From Bacteroidota bacterium (GTDB lineage Bacteria > Bacteroidota > Bacteroidia > 2-12-FULL-35-15): DNA of 64,000 nucleotides. The position numbers were made by a program, and so were the translations under genes. Below the pieces are notes generated by a model that was not told where the DNA came from, did no database searches, and saw only the letters and a program-made list of their open reading frames with translations. Below are positions 14,932-18,846 of this stretch, piece after piece. Where the stretch lies: the NCBI GenBank assembly GCA_029237775.1, contig JAQZBR010000004.1, positions 62,001-126,000 of the forward strand, written 5' to 3'. Every line of letters begins with the position of its first letter. The stretch's first letter is position 1.

Positions 14932-14958
14932 TTGCACAACAGAGAACAAAACATATTT

Positions 14959-17019
14959 ATGAAAATCAACACTTCTTCCCTATTTACTATCGCACTGACA
15001 ACAATTTTCATTGGCTGTAATTCGGACAAAAAAAATCAGAGCAGTGAATCCAGTCCATTCGTTGATCCTATAACATCGCACATAGATTCATCCATTGCCC
15101 CACAGCAGAATTTCTACATGTTTGCCAATAATGGCTGGTTCAAACAACATCCAATTCCTTCTTCGGAAAGCAGTAATGGAATATTCAGAACTATTCAGGA
15201 TACTATCAATGAAGCAGTAAAAAGAATTTGTGAAAGTTCTGCAGCAGATACAAAAGCACCAAAGGGAAGTAACAAGCAAAAGATCGGTGATTTCTATTTC
15301 AGCGGACTTGATACTTTGAATATTGAAAAAACCGGAATAAGCCCATTAAAAGAGGAGCTTTCCAATATCGATAAGATCAAAAATATTCCTGAGCTTTTAA
15401 CCGAGTTAGCTCGAATGCACAGAATGCAAGCCGGATGTATGTTCCGCTTCAATATCAGCAAAGATGAAAAACAAAGCTCTCAATATGTAGTTGCCTTGGG
15501 ACAAAGCGCATTAGGATTACCTGAGAGAGATTATTATTTCAATACAGACTCGAGAACTTCAGAAATAAGAAATGAGTATGTTTCTCACATCAGCAAAATG
15601 TTTCAGCTTACTGGATTAAAGACGGAAGAAGCAGACAAGAACAGTAAGAACATCATGACTATTGAAACTACACTTGCAAAAGCCTGCAGGAAGATGGAAG
15701 ACCTGCGCGATCCGTATAAGAACTACAACAAAATGACTGTTGCAGCTCTGAATAAATTAACACCTTCAATTGAGTGGAACGACATGTTCAGCAAGCTTGG
15801 TGTAAAAAGTGTTGACTCCGTGGTAGTAGGACAGCCTGAGTTTTTTACTGCGCTGGATAAAGGTTTGAAACAATTCAGCATCGAAGACTGGAAAACTTAT
15901 CTGAAATGGAATGTATATGATAGCTATGCTAACTTCCTGACCAAGCCTATTGCCGATGAACATTTTCATTTTTATGCAACTGTGCTTGAAGGAATAAAAG
16001 AGCAAAAGCCTCGTTGGAAAAAAATTGTTGAAAACACCGATGGTTATCTTGGTGAGCTTGTCGGCCAGGTTTACGTAGAGGAATATCTTCCGAAAGGAAC
16101 AAAGGAAAAATTACTTGAGATCGGTAATAACATTCGCGATGTATACCGCGATCACATTAAGCAGCTTGACTGGATGAGTCCCGAAACTAAAGAAAAGGCA
16201 TTGGTAAAGCTTAACAAAATTTCAATGAAAGTTGGTTATCCCGATAAGTGGAAAGACATGAGCAATCTTGAGATCTCACGGGACAGCTATCTTCAGAATG
16301 TGATCAATGTAAATAAATGGAATTATAATTATACGATCAACAAGTACGGCAAGCCAGTCGATCGTAGCGAATGGGAAATGTATCCTCAGACATACAATGC
16401 TTATTATGATCCCACGAATAATGAGATCTGCGTTCCGGCATGCAATATTATTGTTCCCGGATTTGAAGGAAGAATGCCTGATGATGCAGTGTTGTATGGT
16501 ATCATTGGAGGCTCAACTTTCGGACACGAAATCACGCACGGTTTTGATGACCAGGGGAGCTTGTATGATGAGAATGGAAATCTACGTGACTGGTGGACCA
16601 AAGAAGATCGCGAAAAATTTGTTGCAAAAACAAAACTGATCGTTGAGCAGTTCAATAATTATGTTGTTCTTGACAGCCTGCATTTAAAAGGCTCAAACAC
16701 ACAAGGTGAGAACATTGCTGATCTGGGAGGTGTCATCATGGGATTGGAGGCATTTCATAAAACAGAGCAGGGGAAATCAAAAGAACTCATCAATGGCTAT
16801 ACTCCTGACCAGCGCTATTTCCTGGCTTATGCTTATGCCTGGATGGTGAATAAAACAGATGCTTCTTTGGCAAAGCAGGTGATGAGTAATGAGCATGCAC
16901 CTTCCGAATTTCGCGTGATCGGGCCACTTTCCGATATTGATGCTTTTTACCAAGCTTTCAATGTAAAAGAAGGTGATGCAATGTACAGGCCGGATAGTTT
17001 GAGGGTGAAGATCTGGTAG
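14959..17019 (+). CDS. M13-family (neprilysin/PepO-like) zinc metallopeptidase lipoprotein
   Basis: 686 aa from the ATG at 14959. Residues 1-21 form a lipoprotein signal (IFIGC lipobox, Cys then NSDKK), so the enzyme is probably anchored in the outer or inner membrane facing the periplasm. Peptidase_M13_N spans about 40-420 and the catalytic domain follows, with zinc ligands in GHEITHGFDD (HExxH at 523-527) and ENIADLGG (the third ligand Glu), plus the NAYYDP and CNIIVPG substrate-pocket blocks. M13 enzymes cut small peptides. The frame continues upstream to a TTG at 14932, which would spoil the signal peptide. Confidence 0.94.
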   Translation: MKINTSSLFTIALTTIFIGCNSDKKNQSSESSPFVDPITSHIDSSIAPQQNFYMFANNGWFKQHPIPSSESSNGIFRTIQDTINEAVKRICESSAADTKAPKGSNKQKIGDFYFSGLDTLNIEKTGISPLKEELSNIDKIKNIPELLTELARMHRMQAGCMFRFNISKDEKQSSQYVVALGQSALGLPERDYYFNTDSRTSEIRNEYVSHISKMFQLTGLKTEEADKNSKNIMTIETTLAKACRKMEDLRDPYKNYNKMTVAALNKLTPSIEWNDMFSKLGVKSVDSVVVGQPEFFTALDKGLKQFSIEDWKTYLKWNVYDSYANFLTKPIADEHFHFYATVLEGIKEQKPRWKKIVENTDGYLGELVGQVYVEEYLPKGTKEKLLEIGNNIRDVYRDHIKQLDWMSPETKEKALVKLNKISMKVGYPDKWKDMSNLEISRDSYLQNVINVNKWNYNYTINKYGKPVDRSEWEMYPQTYNAYYDPTNNEICVPACNIIVPGFEGRMPDDAVLYGIIGGSTFGHEITHGFDDQGSLYDENGNLRDWWTKEDREKFVAKTKLIVEQFNNYVVLDSLHLKGSNTQGENIADLGGVIMGLEAFHKTEQGKSKELINGYTPDQRYFLAYAYAWMVNKTDASLAKQVMSNEHAPSEFRVIGPLSDIDAFYQAFNVKEGDAMYRPDSLRVKIW

Positions 17020-17036
17020 ATAAGTTCACTATGGAG

Positions 17037-17407
17037 CGTGTCCCCCTCCGGTGGAGGGGGCAGGGGGAGGATGGACCTTTTTTCTATGATTGAAAATCAT
17101 TTTTACAACTCGAACCTTAAATCAAAGGCTTCTACGTTACGCTCCTCCATGACGAAAGCGGAAGCTTGCCTATGGAAATATGCCCTTAAGGCAAGAATGA
17201 TGAAGGGCTACACTTTCAATCGACAACAACCTGTTTTGAACTTTATCGCAGACTTTATGTGTAAAGAACTTTCTTTAATTATTGAAGTTGATGGCGGTTA
17301 TCATCTGAAGGAAGATGTTTATATAAAAGACTTAGAACGTCAAAGAGAACTGGAGCTTAAGTTAAAGCCATAATCACCTCCCCCTGCCCCCTCAAGAGGG
17401 GGACGTG
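17037..17407. mobile_element. Putative small element: DUF559 gene between 31-34-bp hairpin-bearing inverted repeats
   Basis: The left end 17037-17070 reads CGTG, CCCCCTCC hairpin arm, loop GGT, GGAGGGGG, then CAGGGGGAGG. The right end 17377-17407 is its reverse complement, differing only in the hairpin loop and the outermost bases (right end loop region CTCAAGAG). Each end is therefore itself a hairpin and the two ends also pair with each other. The 303-base DUF559 gene fits exactly between them, its ATG touching the left repeat and its stop four bases from the right repeat. The G/C-rich ends contrast sharply with the A/T-rich surroundings. Confidence 0.65.
17071..17373 (+). CDS. DUF559 (Vsr-like endonuclease fold) protein, C-terminally short
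   Basis: 100 aa from the ATG at 17071. The block RSSMTKAEACLWKYALKARM, then KGYTFNRQQPVLNFIADFMC and LIIEVDGGYHLKED, is characteristic of DUF559, a PD-(D/E)xK-fold family related to Vsr endonucleases; the ADF, ExDG and following His are kept. Family members usually go on for about 25-30 more residues with a (K/R)VLRF...V block; here the protein ends ELELKLKP immediately before the right repeat, so it is truncated. The frame extends back to a GTG at 17038 through the repeat, giving Gly/Arg-rich residues, which I reject. An alternative start is ATG 17086. Confidence 0.8.
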   Translation: MDLFSMIENHFYNSNLKSKASTLRSSMTKAEACLWKYALKARMMKGYTFNRQQPVLNFIADFMCKELSLIIEVDGGYHLKEDVYIKDLERQRELELKLKP

Positions 17408-17592: not shown

Positions 17593-18846
17593 ATGGGATA
17601 CTTATTTACATCCGAATCAGTTTCGGAAGGACATCCGGATAAAGTTGCTGACCAGATCTCTGACGCATTAATTGACAACTTCCTTGCATTCGATCCTCAA
17701 TCAAAAGTTGCATGCGAAACACTTGTTACAACAGGACAGGTTGTACTCGCAGGAGAAGTAAAATCCAAAGCATATCTTGATGTTCAGACTATCGCTCGCG
17801 ATGTGATCAAAAAGATCGGATACACAAAAAGTGAATATATGTTTGAAGCAAATTCATGCGGTGTGTTCTCTGCGATCCATGAACAATCTTCTGATATCAA
17901 TCAGGGGGTTGATAAAAAGAAAAAAGAAGAACAAGGAGCCGGTGACCAGGGAATGATGTTTGGTTATGCGACAAACGAAACTGAAAATTATATGCCTCTT
18001 GCTCTTGATCTTGCGCATGCAATATTGATCGAGCTTGCTGCATTAAGAAGAGAAGACAAACAAATAAAATATCTTCGTCCGGATGCAAAGTCACAGGTTA
18101 CTTTAGAGTACGATGACAACAACAATCCTGTTAGAATTGATTCAATAGTTGTATCCACACAGCATGATGATTTTGACGAAGAAAGAAAGATGCTTGATAA
18201 AATTAAAAAAGACATTATCAGTATCCTTATTCCACGTGTAAAGAAGAATTATCCTAAATACGCTCACCTTTTCAATAACAAGATCAACTATCATATCAAT
18301 CCAACCGGCAAGTTTGTGATTGGTGGCCCGCACGGTGATACCGGATTGACCGGACGTAAGATTATCGTAGATACTTATGGTGGTAAAGGTGCTCACGGTG
18401 GTGGCGCATTTTCCGGGAAAGATCCTTCTAAAGTTGACCGTTCCGCAGCTTATGCTACACGTCACATCGCTAAAAACCTGGTTGCTGCTGGAGTTTGCTC
18501 TGAAGTACTTGTTCAGGTTTCTTATGCGATCGGTGTTGCACAGCCAATGGGAATCTACATTAACACTTACGGTTCTTCAAAAGTAAAAATGACTGATGGA
18601 CAGATCGCAAAAATCGTTGAAGGCGTATTTGATATGCGTCCATACTTTATTGAGCAGCGTTTAAAATTACGTAACCCAATTTACAGTGAAACTGCTGCTT
18701 ACGGGCACATGGGACGTAAACACGAGACAGTAACTAAAATTTTCAGATCTCCTGATGGAAAAGAGAAAAAAGTTAAAGTTGAACTCTTCACCTGGGAAAA
18801 ACTTGATTATGTTGCAAAAGTTAAAGCAGCATTTAAATTAAAATAA
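17593..18846 (+). CDS. metK: S-adenosylmethionine synthetase
   Basis: 417 aa. It makes AdoMet from methionine and ATP. The signatures are intact: [20 protein letters not shown] at the N-terminus (His for phosphate transfer), [13 protein letters not shown] (methionine/ATP binding) and [19 protein letters not shown] (P-loop-like). It is about 30 residues longer than the E. coli enzyme, with insertions in the middle, as is usual in Bacteroidota. The 219 bases upstream contain a weak box (TATTTTAG near 17538) but no SAM riboswitch that I can fold. A strong terminator follows, so it is monocistronic. Confidence 0.97.

Follow-up and report, generated by a model that had tools for sequence, protein, structure and literature searches.

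Palindrome-bounded DUF559 nuclease genes as candidate mobile elements of Bacteroidota, some lodged in frame within essential enzymes

In a Bacteroidota genome and its relatives, genes of the DUF559 family commonly lie between two inverted arms, each made of a hairpin and a short tail, and gene and arms together probably constitute a single mobile element with an EDxHD-type nuclease as its driver. This reading rests on the architecture of the elements, the specific association of the arms with DUF559, the co-variation of arm and protein, the turnover of elements at fixed sites, the boundaries of two pairs of copies, purifying selection and the fold of the protein. With rather less assurance, we lean towards a wider proposal: that these elements make up a class of mobile element not described before in prokaryotes, in which EDxHD nucleases bounded by palindromes spread within genomes, and that one large Bacteroidota clade colonises loops of essential enzymes (LeuRS, MetH, RecG, IleRS, ValRS, acetyl-CoA synthetase and RecJ) as translated, unspliced ‘exonic’ homing elements that give rise to solo arms as non-autonomous offspring. 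It is the combination of features that we rate as new; the relation to REP/RAYT pairs, to homing endonucleases and to Rickettsia palindromic elements (RPE) is one of analogy. The in-frame lodging of the main DUF559 clade in housekeeping enzymes is the larger point, and it is absent from the sequence-only reading of a single copy that this analysis followed up.

The element upstream of metK

That copy lies in a window of 64,000 nt, the whole stretch of DNA analysed, which maps to contig C3 of a 4.08-Mb draft genome. The element and its neighbours are listed here in order along the window.

14932..17019, + strand: upstream host gene, M13-peptidase-like, outside the element (ORF; name from sequence reading)
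17033..17041, + strand: outer flank of the left arm, GGAGCGTGT (sequence)
17042..17060, + strand: left-arm hairpin, CCCCCTCC-GGT-GGAGGGGG (sequence; class by script)
17061..17070, + strand: left-arm tail CAGGGGGAGG, facing the gene (‘IN’ orientation) (sequence; class by script)
17071..17373, + strand: DUF559 (PF04480) ORF, 100 aa, C-terminally truncated (ORF list, Pfam, alignment with relatives)
17377..17386, - strand: right-arm tail, CAGGGGGAGG on the - strand, CCTCCCCCTG as read on the + strand (sequence)
17387..17402, - strand: right-arm hairpin, CCCCCT-CAAG-AGGGGG (sequence; class by script)
17593..18846, + strand: downstream metK (S-adenosylmethionine synthetase), outside the element (ORF; name from sequence reading)

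The sequence-only reading described the ends as hairpin-bearing inverted repeats around a DUF559 gene, and so they are. The arms (17042-17070 and 17377-17402) pair over 26 nt, 17045-17070 with 17377-17402, at 85% complementarity, and their best gapless core of 17/17 nt scores 17.0 against a maximum of 13.5 among 261 controls in the same loci. The paired arrangement is the striking feature; the tail CAGGGGGAGG alone is not rare enough, with three matches of at most one mismatch in the window against 1.27 expected. The place that corresponds to the outer flank GGAGCGTGT is occupied by GGAGCATAT or GAGCTTGT in the relatives L063, L067 and L079. The gene had also been said to fill the whole interior, and its ATG at 17071 does directly abut the left arm, although the stop codon (TAA, 17371-17373) stands three bases from the right arm and not four. 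The true start of the ORF is uncertain, since the reading frame extends without a stop back across the left arm to a GTG at 17038.

The window ORF matches the Pfam DUF559 profile with an E-value of 3.2e-21 and 75.7 bits (cut-off 20.6). DUF559 was the only match in this search, with no HUH/Y1 transposase, and the earlier description of a REP/RAYT-like layout housing a DUF559 protein rather than an HUH enzyme is supported. Of the 109 profile columns the match covers 2-79, and the C-terminal block is therefore lacking, as had been claimed: the nearest relatives (L066, L067, L073 and L063) run on with a last strand and helix where the window protein ends, and the right arm starts three bases past this early end. 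An alignment of 27 rows has T, E, W, R, Q, D, E, D, H, D and R as its invariant columns, all of which the window copy retains, and it is to these columns that we assign, as our own assumption, the letters of the EDxHD motif. A broad alignment of 27 rows contained no stretch of sufficient conservation to base a scan on. Having lost its C-terminus relative to the nearest relatives, the window copy is a truncated and probably inactive derivative belonging to a ‘tails-inward’ clade, which agrees with the earlier suspicion of a dead copy.

Absence of the arm repeats from the rest of the genome had been named as grounds for rejecting the sequence-only reading, and taken literally that absence is what is seen: the 15-mer GGGGGCAGGGGGAGG, with up to two mismatches, has no occurrence in the 4.08-Mb draft beyond the two window arms. 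This absence tests the degenerate window copy rather than the family, and the arm search is uninformative for a decayed copy. The broader hairpin type CCTCTCCNNNGGAGAGG occurs four times in the same draft, and the pattern CCCCCTYN(3-5)RAGGGGG twice, one of the two being, by our reading, the left arm of the window. The genome also carries a second DUF559 copy of a different clade (L093, C3:417517-417807), which has an internal TGA and a right-hand palindrome, with a further palindrome downstream of it.

The metK gene fixes a slot that the window copy has in common with three relatives. DUF559 is found upstream of metK in 4 of 30 metK loci, those of the window's genome and of G003, G010 and G035, and the copies in the last three are full length, armed and in the same orientation. 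Over the searched 136 aa, the MetK of G028 shows 99% identity, yet its slot holds no gene; a short imperfect palindrome, GAGCGTGTCCCC-TTCTGC-GGGATGCGCTC, stands at a similar position and may be read as a remnant or solo form. By eye, other loci (G006, G007, G016, G025 and G031 are examples) have a short intergenic stretch with neither gene nor palindrome upstream of metK, and some have a different gene. As the slot is occupied in relatives, the window copy is most simply an inherited and decaying member of an older insertion.

Matching inverted flanks around DUF559 genes

The genome set comprises 59 genomes, the window's own and 58 relatives, and DUF559 is present in 45 of them, in 112 rows. 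Two overlapping rows of G009 were merged to give 111 places, which were analysed as a first batch of 91 and a later one of 20, the latter mostly weak or partial. At each place the left 200 nt were aligned to the reverse complement of the right 200 nt, with a threshold of 13.5 set by the maximum of the 261 control placements. The first batch had 87 testable places, 70 of them above the threshold, and the later batch had 18, of which 7 were above it. Matching inverted flanks that exceed every control are therefore found in 77 of 105 testable DUF559 places, the other six of the 111 lying untestable at contig ends. The same was true of 0/104 other ORFs, 90-400 aa long, from those loci, these being mechanical ATG-to-stop frames that may overlap one another. 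The sequence-only reading was prepared to fall if DUF559 genes in relatives were flanked by such arms no more often than other genes, and it survives, as the difference is very large. No inverted flanks over the threshold were seen in 28 of the 105 places; those of the later 20 are mostly fragments or distant relatives.

A genome scan added 80 named loci, of which 47 lie above 13.5 while the maximum of 240 controls is 13.0; DUF559 sits in frames of at least 250 aa in 72 of the 80. At least five of these loci (L215, L216, L217, L259 and L294) repeat contigs of the 59-genome set, and with these five removed the counts become 44/75 above the threshold and 67/75 in frames of at least 250 aa, a share that is not a rate, since the named set was picked by similarity to the in-gene clade.

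Fold, selection and published background of DUF559

The window copy being truncated, the fold was approached through the domains of relatives. A model of one of them (L253; pLDDT 83, pTM 0.76) was matched by Foldseek to a Neisseria endonuclease-like protein (3hrl), to the catalytic domain of I-Bth0305I (3r3p, E 9.6e-5) and to Vsr (1vsr/1cw0, E 0.02), and an hmmsearch with a sequence profile of relatives (A4) gave 1.7e-31 for 3hrl and 1.8e-5 for 3r3p. One solved chain among the profile matches is named ‘Mobile intron protein’. Conserved residues and the predicted model thus point to a catalytic domain of the I-Bth0305I/Vsr type, with the EDxHD feature. Codon comparisons indicate that the DUF559 domains are under purifying selection: among the 13 pairs for which dS is usable, 12 have dN/dS of 0.03-0.20 and one, at a very small dS, has 0.48. 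Altogether 19 pairs were tested, six of which gave no usable dS; dS is over 1 in four of the 13, and stop codons in the rows of L026 and L053 were left out.

The EDxHD family of homing endonucleases includes I-Bth0305I (PMC3943268), and a DUF559 gene has already been placed in this family, in a section on inteins (PMC9403480). The VsrA protein of Caulobacter is a Vsr-like DUF559 protein reported as a predicted mismatch-repair nuclease (PMC12907096), so not every DUF559 protein need be selfish. In Legionella, segments with DUF559 plus a transposase are reported to be recombination hotspots (PMC12308824). Among papers that mention DUF559, in a scope lying outside preprints and most subscription papers, none describes such elements in its title or the start of its abstract.

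Arm type, protein clade and solo palindromes

REP/RAYT pairs, or REPtrons, consist of dispersed hairpin-plus-tail palindromes and a single nuclease gene between two inverted copies, and the type of palindrome co-varies with the protein. A palindrome-bounded gene whose palindrome is also dispersed in the genome is found here at the level of the family, and weakly in the window's own genome.

Arm orientation was assigned by script in 48 of the first 91 places. Tails lie outside in 29 of the 91 (OUT) and inside in 19 (IN), and the remaining 43 are mixed, one-sided or had no hairpin detected. In a tree of the 91 domains, a clade of 30 rows (support 100/99) contains 16 IN and no OUT elements, and a clade of 31 rows (98/93) contains 23 OUT and no IN elements, all 31 rows lying within open frames at least 359 aa long. 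In 0/500 shuffles did the orientation labels cluster as well on the tree, for IN and OUT alike. Between genomes, the similarity of the proteins of 70 elements is correlated with that of their arms (Mantel rho 0.47; 0/500 permutations as high), and within elements the best match of the left arm is its own right arm in 31 of the 70, while in 57 the right arm ranks third or higher. This phylogenetically structured association of protein and arm is what recognition of the arm by the protein would predict.

The hairpins also occur away from the gene. Hairpins of the OUT type number 0-62 per genome, with none for a reversed-pattern control in all 59, and those of the IN type number 0-46, with one match each way for the reversed control in 2/59. 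OUT palindromes are more numerous in genomes with non-IN DUF559 (p 1e-4) and IN palindromes in those that carry the IN clade (p 4e-5), p-values that are optimistic, as the genomes are related and not phylogenetically independent. The cross terms give p 0.33 for OUT counts against the IN clade and a marginal p 0.04 for IN counts against non-IN DUF559. When up to two copies per element are subtracted, the associations become weaker (p 0.005 for IN, 0.009 for OUT). This test classified 91 of the 111 places, and its ‘neither’ group includes G012, G026, G055 and G056, genomes whose DUF559 hits were examined after the test. Some genomes do not fit. In G001 palindromes of both types occur with no DUF559 hit, G012 combines 16 OUT palindromes with only a weak DUF559 hit, and G026 combines 38 OUT palindromes with a sole DUF559 gene that has GGGGTGTGT-tailed, inward-looking arms. 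Among the DUF559 copies examined in G012 and G026 none is of the expected clade, and several genomes with DUF559 have no such palindromes.

The same palindromes would also be seen if DUF559 were an ordinary Vsr-like mismatch-repair gene, hitch-hiking in, or tolerated beside, REP/BIME-like palindromes that owe their spread to another agent, such as RAYT transposases. VsrA offers a precedent for such a gene, and RAYT-family (Y1_Tnp) genes are common, being found in 48 of the 59 genomes (46 above the family cut-off), with palindrome counts that rise with RAYT presence (p 0.04). The counts follow DUF559 more strongly, however (p 8e-5), the type of arm follows the DUF559 clade, and G006, G010 and G031 have palindromes and DUF559 with no RAYT hit. 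The flanks of RAYT genes themselves exceed the threshold in 11 of the 30 loci examined out of more than 150 listed matches, which is a positive control for the method, and by eye none of their palindromes is of the CCCCTCTCC/CCCCCT type. As the RAYTs examined, 30 loci of the more than 150 listed, carry their own, different palindromes, RAYT was rejected as the main driver, and the account of DUF559 as a hitch-hiking repair gene is unlikely.

Copies inside essential enzymes

The 31-row OUT clade lies in frame, arms included, within long host ORFs of 359 to 1183 aa, some of them cut by the fetched stretch. The in-gene insert measures about 145 aa, nearly all of it DUF559 and arm peptides, and the frame is open through both arms. 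In ten host proteins chosen over both sets, Pfam locates DUF559 within, or fused to the end of, the host enzyme: MetH (twice), RecG, LeuRS, ValRS, an aldehyde-dehydrogenase/MaoC protein, acetyl-CoA synthetase, RecJ, a CoA transferase and a class I synthetase that we take to be IleRS. The loop of the LeuRS editing domain is the host site of 44 of the 104 in-gene rows of the combined set, by motif labels that left 16 of the 104 as ‘other’. The tree of these 104 rows, from which the five repeated named loci were dropped, is poorly resolved, with 51 of 101 inner branches open.

Among 30 LeuRS loci of the 59 genomes, the editing-domain loop holds a full element in five, a solo arm in three and an unrelated palindrome in one; one further locus was missed by the motif and 20 are without such an insertion. 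Of 30 MetH loci, eight hold a full element and four a solo arm at a loop of the activation domain, and in the remainder the loop has neither form, apart from an unrelated palindrome in L117 and what looks like a remnant in L108. The unrelated palindromes of the LeuRS loop (L140) and of the MetH loop (L117) are short, in frame and of the CCTGAGCGGAGTCGAAGG type, so these loops accept several palindrome families. The MetH gene of the window's own genome (L100, C5:285475-288975), missed by the motif search, contains an in-frame DUF559 element with an internal deletion that has spared both arms and roughly the first 20 residues of the domain.

The nine genomes of the first set with a copy in LeuRS (G004, G006, G013, G019, G021, G040, G048, G049 and G058) have one LeuRS match each, and the LeuRS fusion should therefore be functional, as far as the drafts are complete. 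In a model of a Dysgonomonas LeuRS with its insert (pLDDT 80, pTM 0.66, 27 rows), the helices and strands of DUF559 are predicted to sit between two strands of the host, and two of the four stretches of lowest confidence (295-305 and 426-431) correspond to the translated arms. Insertion is not confined to loops: in Hymenobacter aerophilus DSM 13606 one element is appended to the C-terminus of MetH (Pfam) and a second to the C-terminus of another protein, presumably PurQ/PurL-like from a reading of its sequence. Two in-gene copies, in MetH and RecG, come from contigs labelled Saccharibacteria (L256) and Limnohabitans (L224); they group with Bacteroidota and are perhaps mis-binned contigs rather than transfers.

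Turnover at fixed sites

The LeuRS and MetH loops vary between species, some being empty and others occupied by a solo arm or by a full element. The MetH genes of G006 and G031 carry different elements at the same site, within flanks that are 94% and 93% identical over 600 nt either side; the inserts are 63.5% identical over their aligned part and have different arms. The MetH genes of G004 and G034, with flanks about 94.5% identical, carry different solo arms. MetH copies as a whole fall in two separate supported DUF559 clades.

Two pairs of copies within genomes show where an element stops. In G042 the domains are identical at 309 of 324 nt and the copies are alike up to the end of the right arm, beyond which identity is about 50-66%, with 72% in one stretch, in paralogous genes that we take to encode phosphatases. 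In G038 the copies are identical at 246 of 252 nt, and, coming from outside, they become alike roughly a dozen bases before the left hairpin. One end is seen per pair, one G042 copy and both G038 copies running off the contig end, and no clear target-site duplication was recognised by eye at these ends or in the metK slot. As far as can be read from sequence, the turnover of sites and the copy pairs are consistent with gene conversion promoted by cleavage.

It might be argued instead that the in-gene copies are stable, functional fusions, domesticated as sensors or repair modules, whose arms are linker-coding relics. This would accord with purifying selection, with several LeuRS copies that are common to clades and with the RecG copies of Flavobacteriaceae. 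The latter (L239, L243, L250, L251, L273, L283 and L289) have DUF559 at one site with no detectable arms, look inherited by descent and may be a candidate domesticated form. Stable fusion is improbable as a general account, however, because different elements occupy one MetH site in genes that are about 94% identical, because two separate clades are found at that site, and because the MetH copy of the window's own genome is internally deleted with both its arms kept. Solo arms at the same loops and the C-terminal fusions in Hymenobacter aerophilus also argue against it.

Inteins or intron-encoded homing endonucleases with an overlooked splicing part are a very poor prospect, even though I-Bth0305I, the ‘Mobile intron protein’ and the placing of a DUF559 gene in a section on inteins all lead in that direction. 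No intein/Hint family was found at E 1e-5 or better in the 10 host proteins, and no Rfam intron RNA family at the gathering threshold overlaps the elements in 10 loci. Moreover, the small size and make-up of the insert and the frame open through both arms speak against a splicing part. A lone group II intron RNA match (L005:3113-3187, - strand) lies near an element-bearing MetH gene and outside the element.

Assembly chimeras or chance palindromes in MAGs hardly merit consideration: most loci are on MAG contigs and some at contig ends, but the flank controls are clean and 13 NZ_ records of the named set, with the host recognised in 12 and carriers that include Rufibacter sp. XAAS-G3-1, Hymenobacter aerophilus DSM 13606, Dysgonomonas sp. 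521 and Mucilaginibacter sp. FT3.2, have DUF559 in frames of at least 250 aa.

How such an element might spread

For the mobile element that we favour, we infer recognition, cutting, a copying route, movement and the absence of splicing at the level of the protein along the following lines. A nuclease made from any copy would recognise hairpin-plus-tail arms of its own type and would nick or break the DNA at an arm or at the target. Host repair or replication would then copy the whole element, or a single arm, into the new place, in a manner that may resemble that of a homing endonuclease or of a REP/RAYT pair, and single arms would spread as non-autonomous palindromes. Selection would filter the insertions, with those that survive being intergenic, C-terminal or in frame in tolerant loops of essential enzymes. 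Inside genes, the arms would encode flexible linkers and the nuclease would be translated as an internal, unspliced domain. Essential hosts would shield the element from deletion, so that it would be hard to lose.

Comparison with known systems

The DUF559 elements share with REP/RAYT pairs the dispersed palindromes, the gene between inverted copies and the co-variation of palindrome and protein. They differ in the enzyme, which has a Vsr/EDxHD fold and lacks the HUH/Y1 feature, in having a major clade that is intragenic and in frame, and in their palindromes, those used by RAYTs of the same genomes being others. With inteins they share the habit of an in-frame selfish nuclease within conserved enzymes, but no splicing domain was detected and the insert appears to be retained in the mature protein. 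As a defining feature tested is missing for REP/RAYT pairs and for inteins alike, the elements belong to neither.

The EDxHD and free-standing homing endonucleases resemble the DUF559 elements in catalytic fold, in residence at conserved genes and in replacement at the same site. The DUF559 elements differ in having palindromic arms at their boundaries; a self-splicing intron or intein was not detected with them, and the in-gene copies are without a large DNA-binding region beyond the catalytic domain. Vsr and the Caulobacter VsrA protein have the fold and the DUF559 domain in common with them but are described as repair enzymes, and palindrome-bounded elements go unmentioned in the available part of the VsrA paper (PMC12907096). 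RPE are elements of about 150 bp that lie in frame in metabolic genes and are translated, with no gene mentioned in the part of the source at hand (PMC10969869). Solo arms are likewise gene-less palindromes in frame in coding sequence, whereas the full DUF559 form carries its own nuclease, of which the solo arm is a reduced form; RPE are compared here by description. As regards IS elements and MITEs, the window ORF matches DUF559 only, and the copy pairs and metK slot have no duplication recognisable by eye.

Should the proposal be true, a widespread ‘domain of unknown function’ would acquire a role, and small G/C-rich palindromes would acquire a candidate driver other than RAYT proteins. Selfish nucleases of bacteria would then be seen to live in essential enzymes without splicing, and the elements would put to the test the tolerance of tRNA synthetases and metabolic enzymes to large insertions and ideas on the origin of new protein domains. 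Cultured carriers exist, so the idea is testable.

Two minor observations concern the palindromes themselves. The C-termini of two DUF559 proteins (L087 and L088; G016:C66 and G025:C11) are tandem repeats with several copies of units of the IPLAPFSKGEG type, in which the palindrome itself is apparently translated. RAYT loci such as L172, L173 and L181 have long inverted palindromic flanks of other sequence, and the RAYT flanks form a ready comparison set for the evolution of REP in Bacteroidota.
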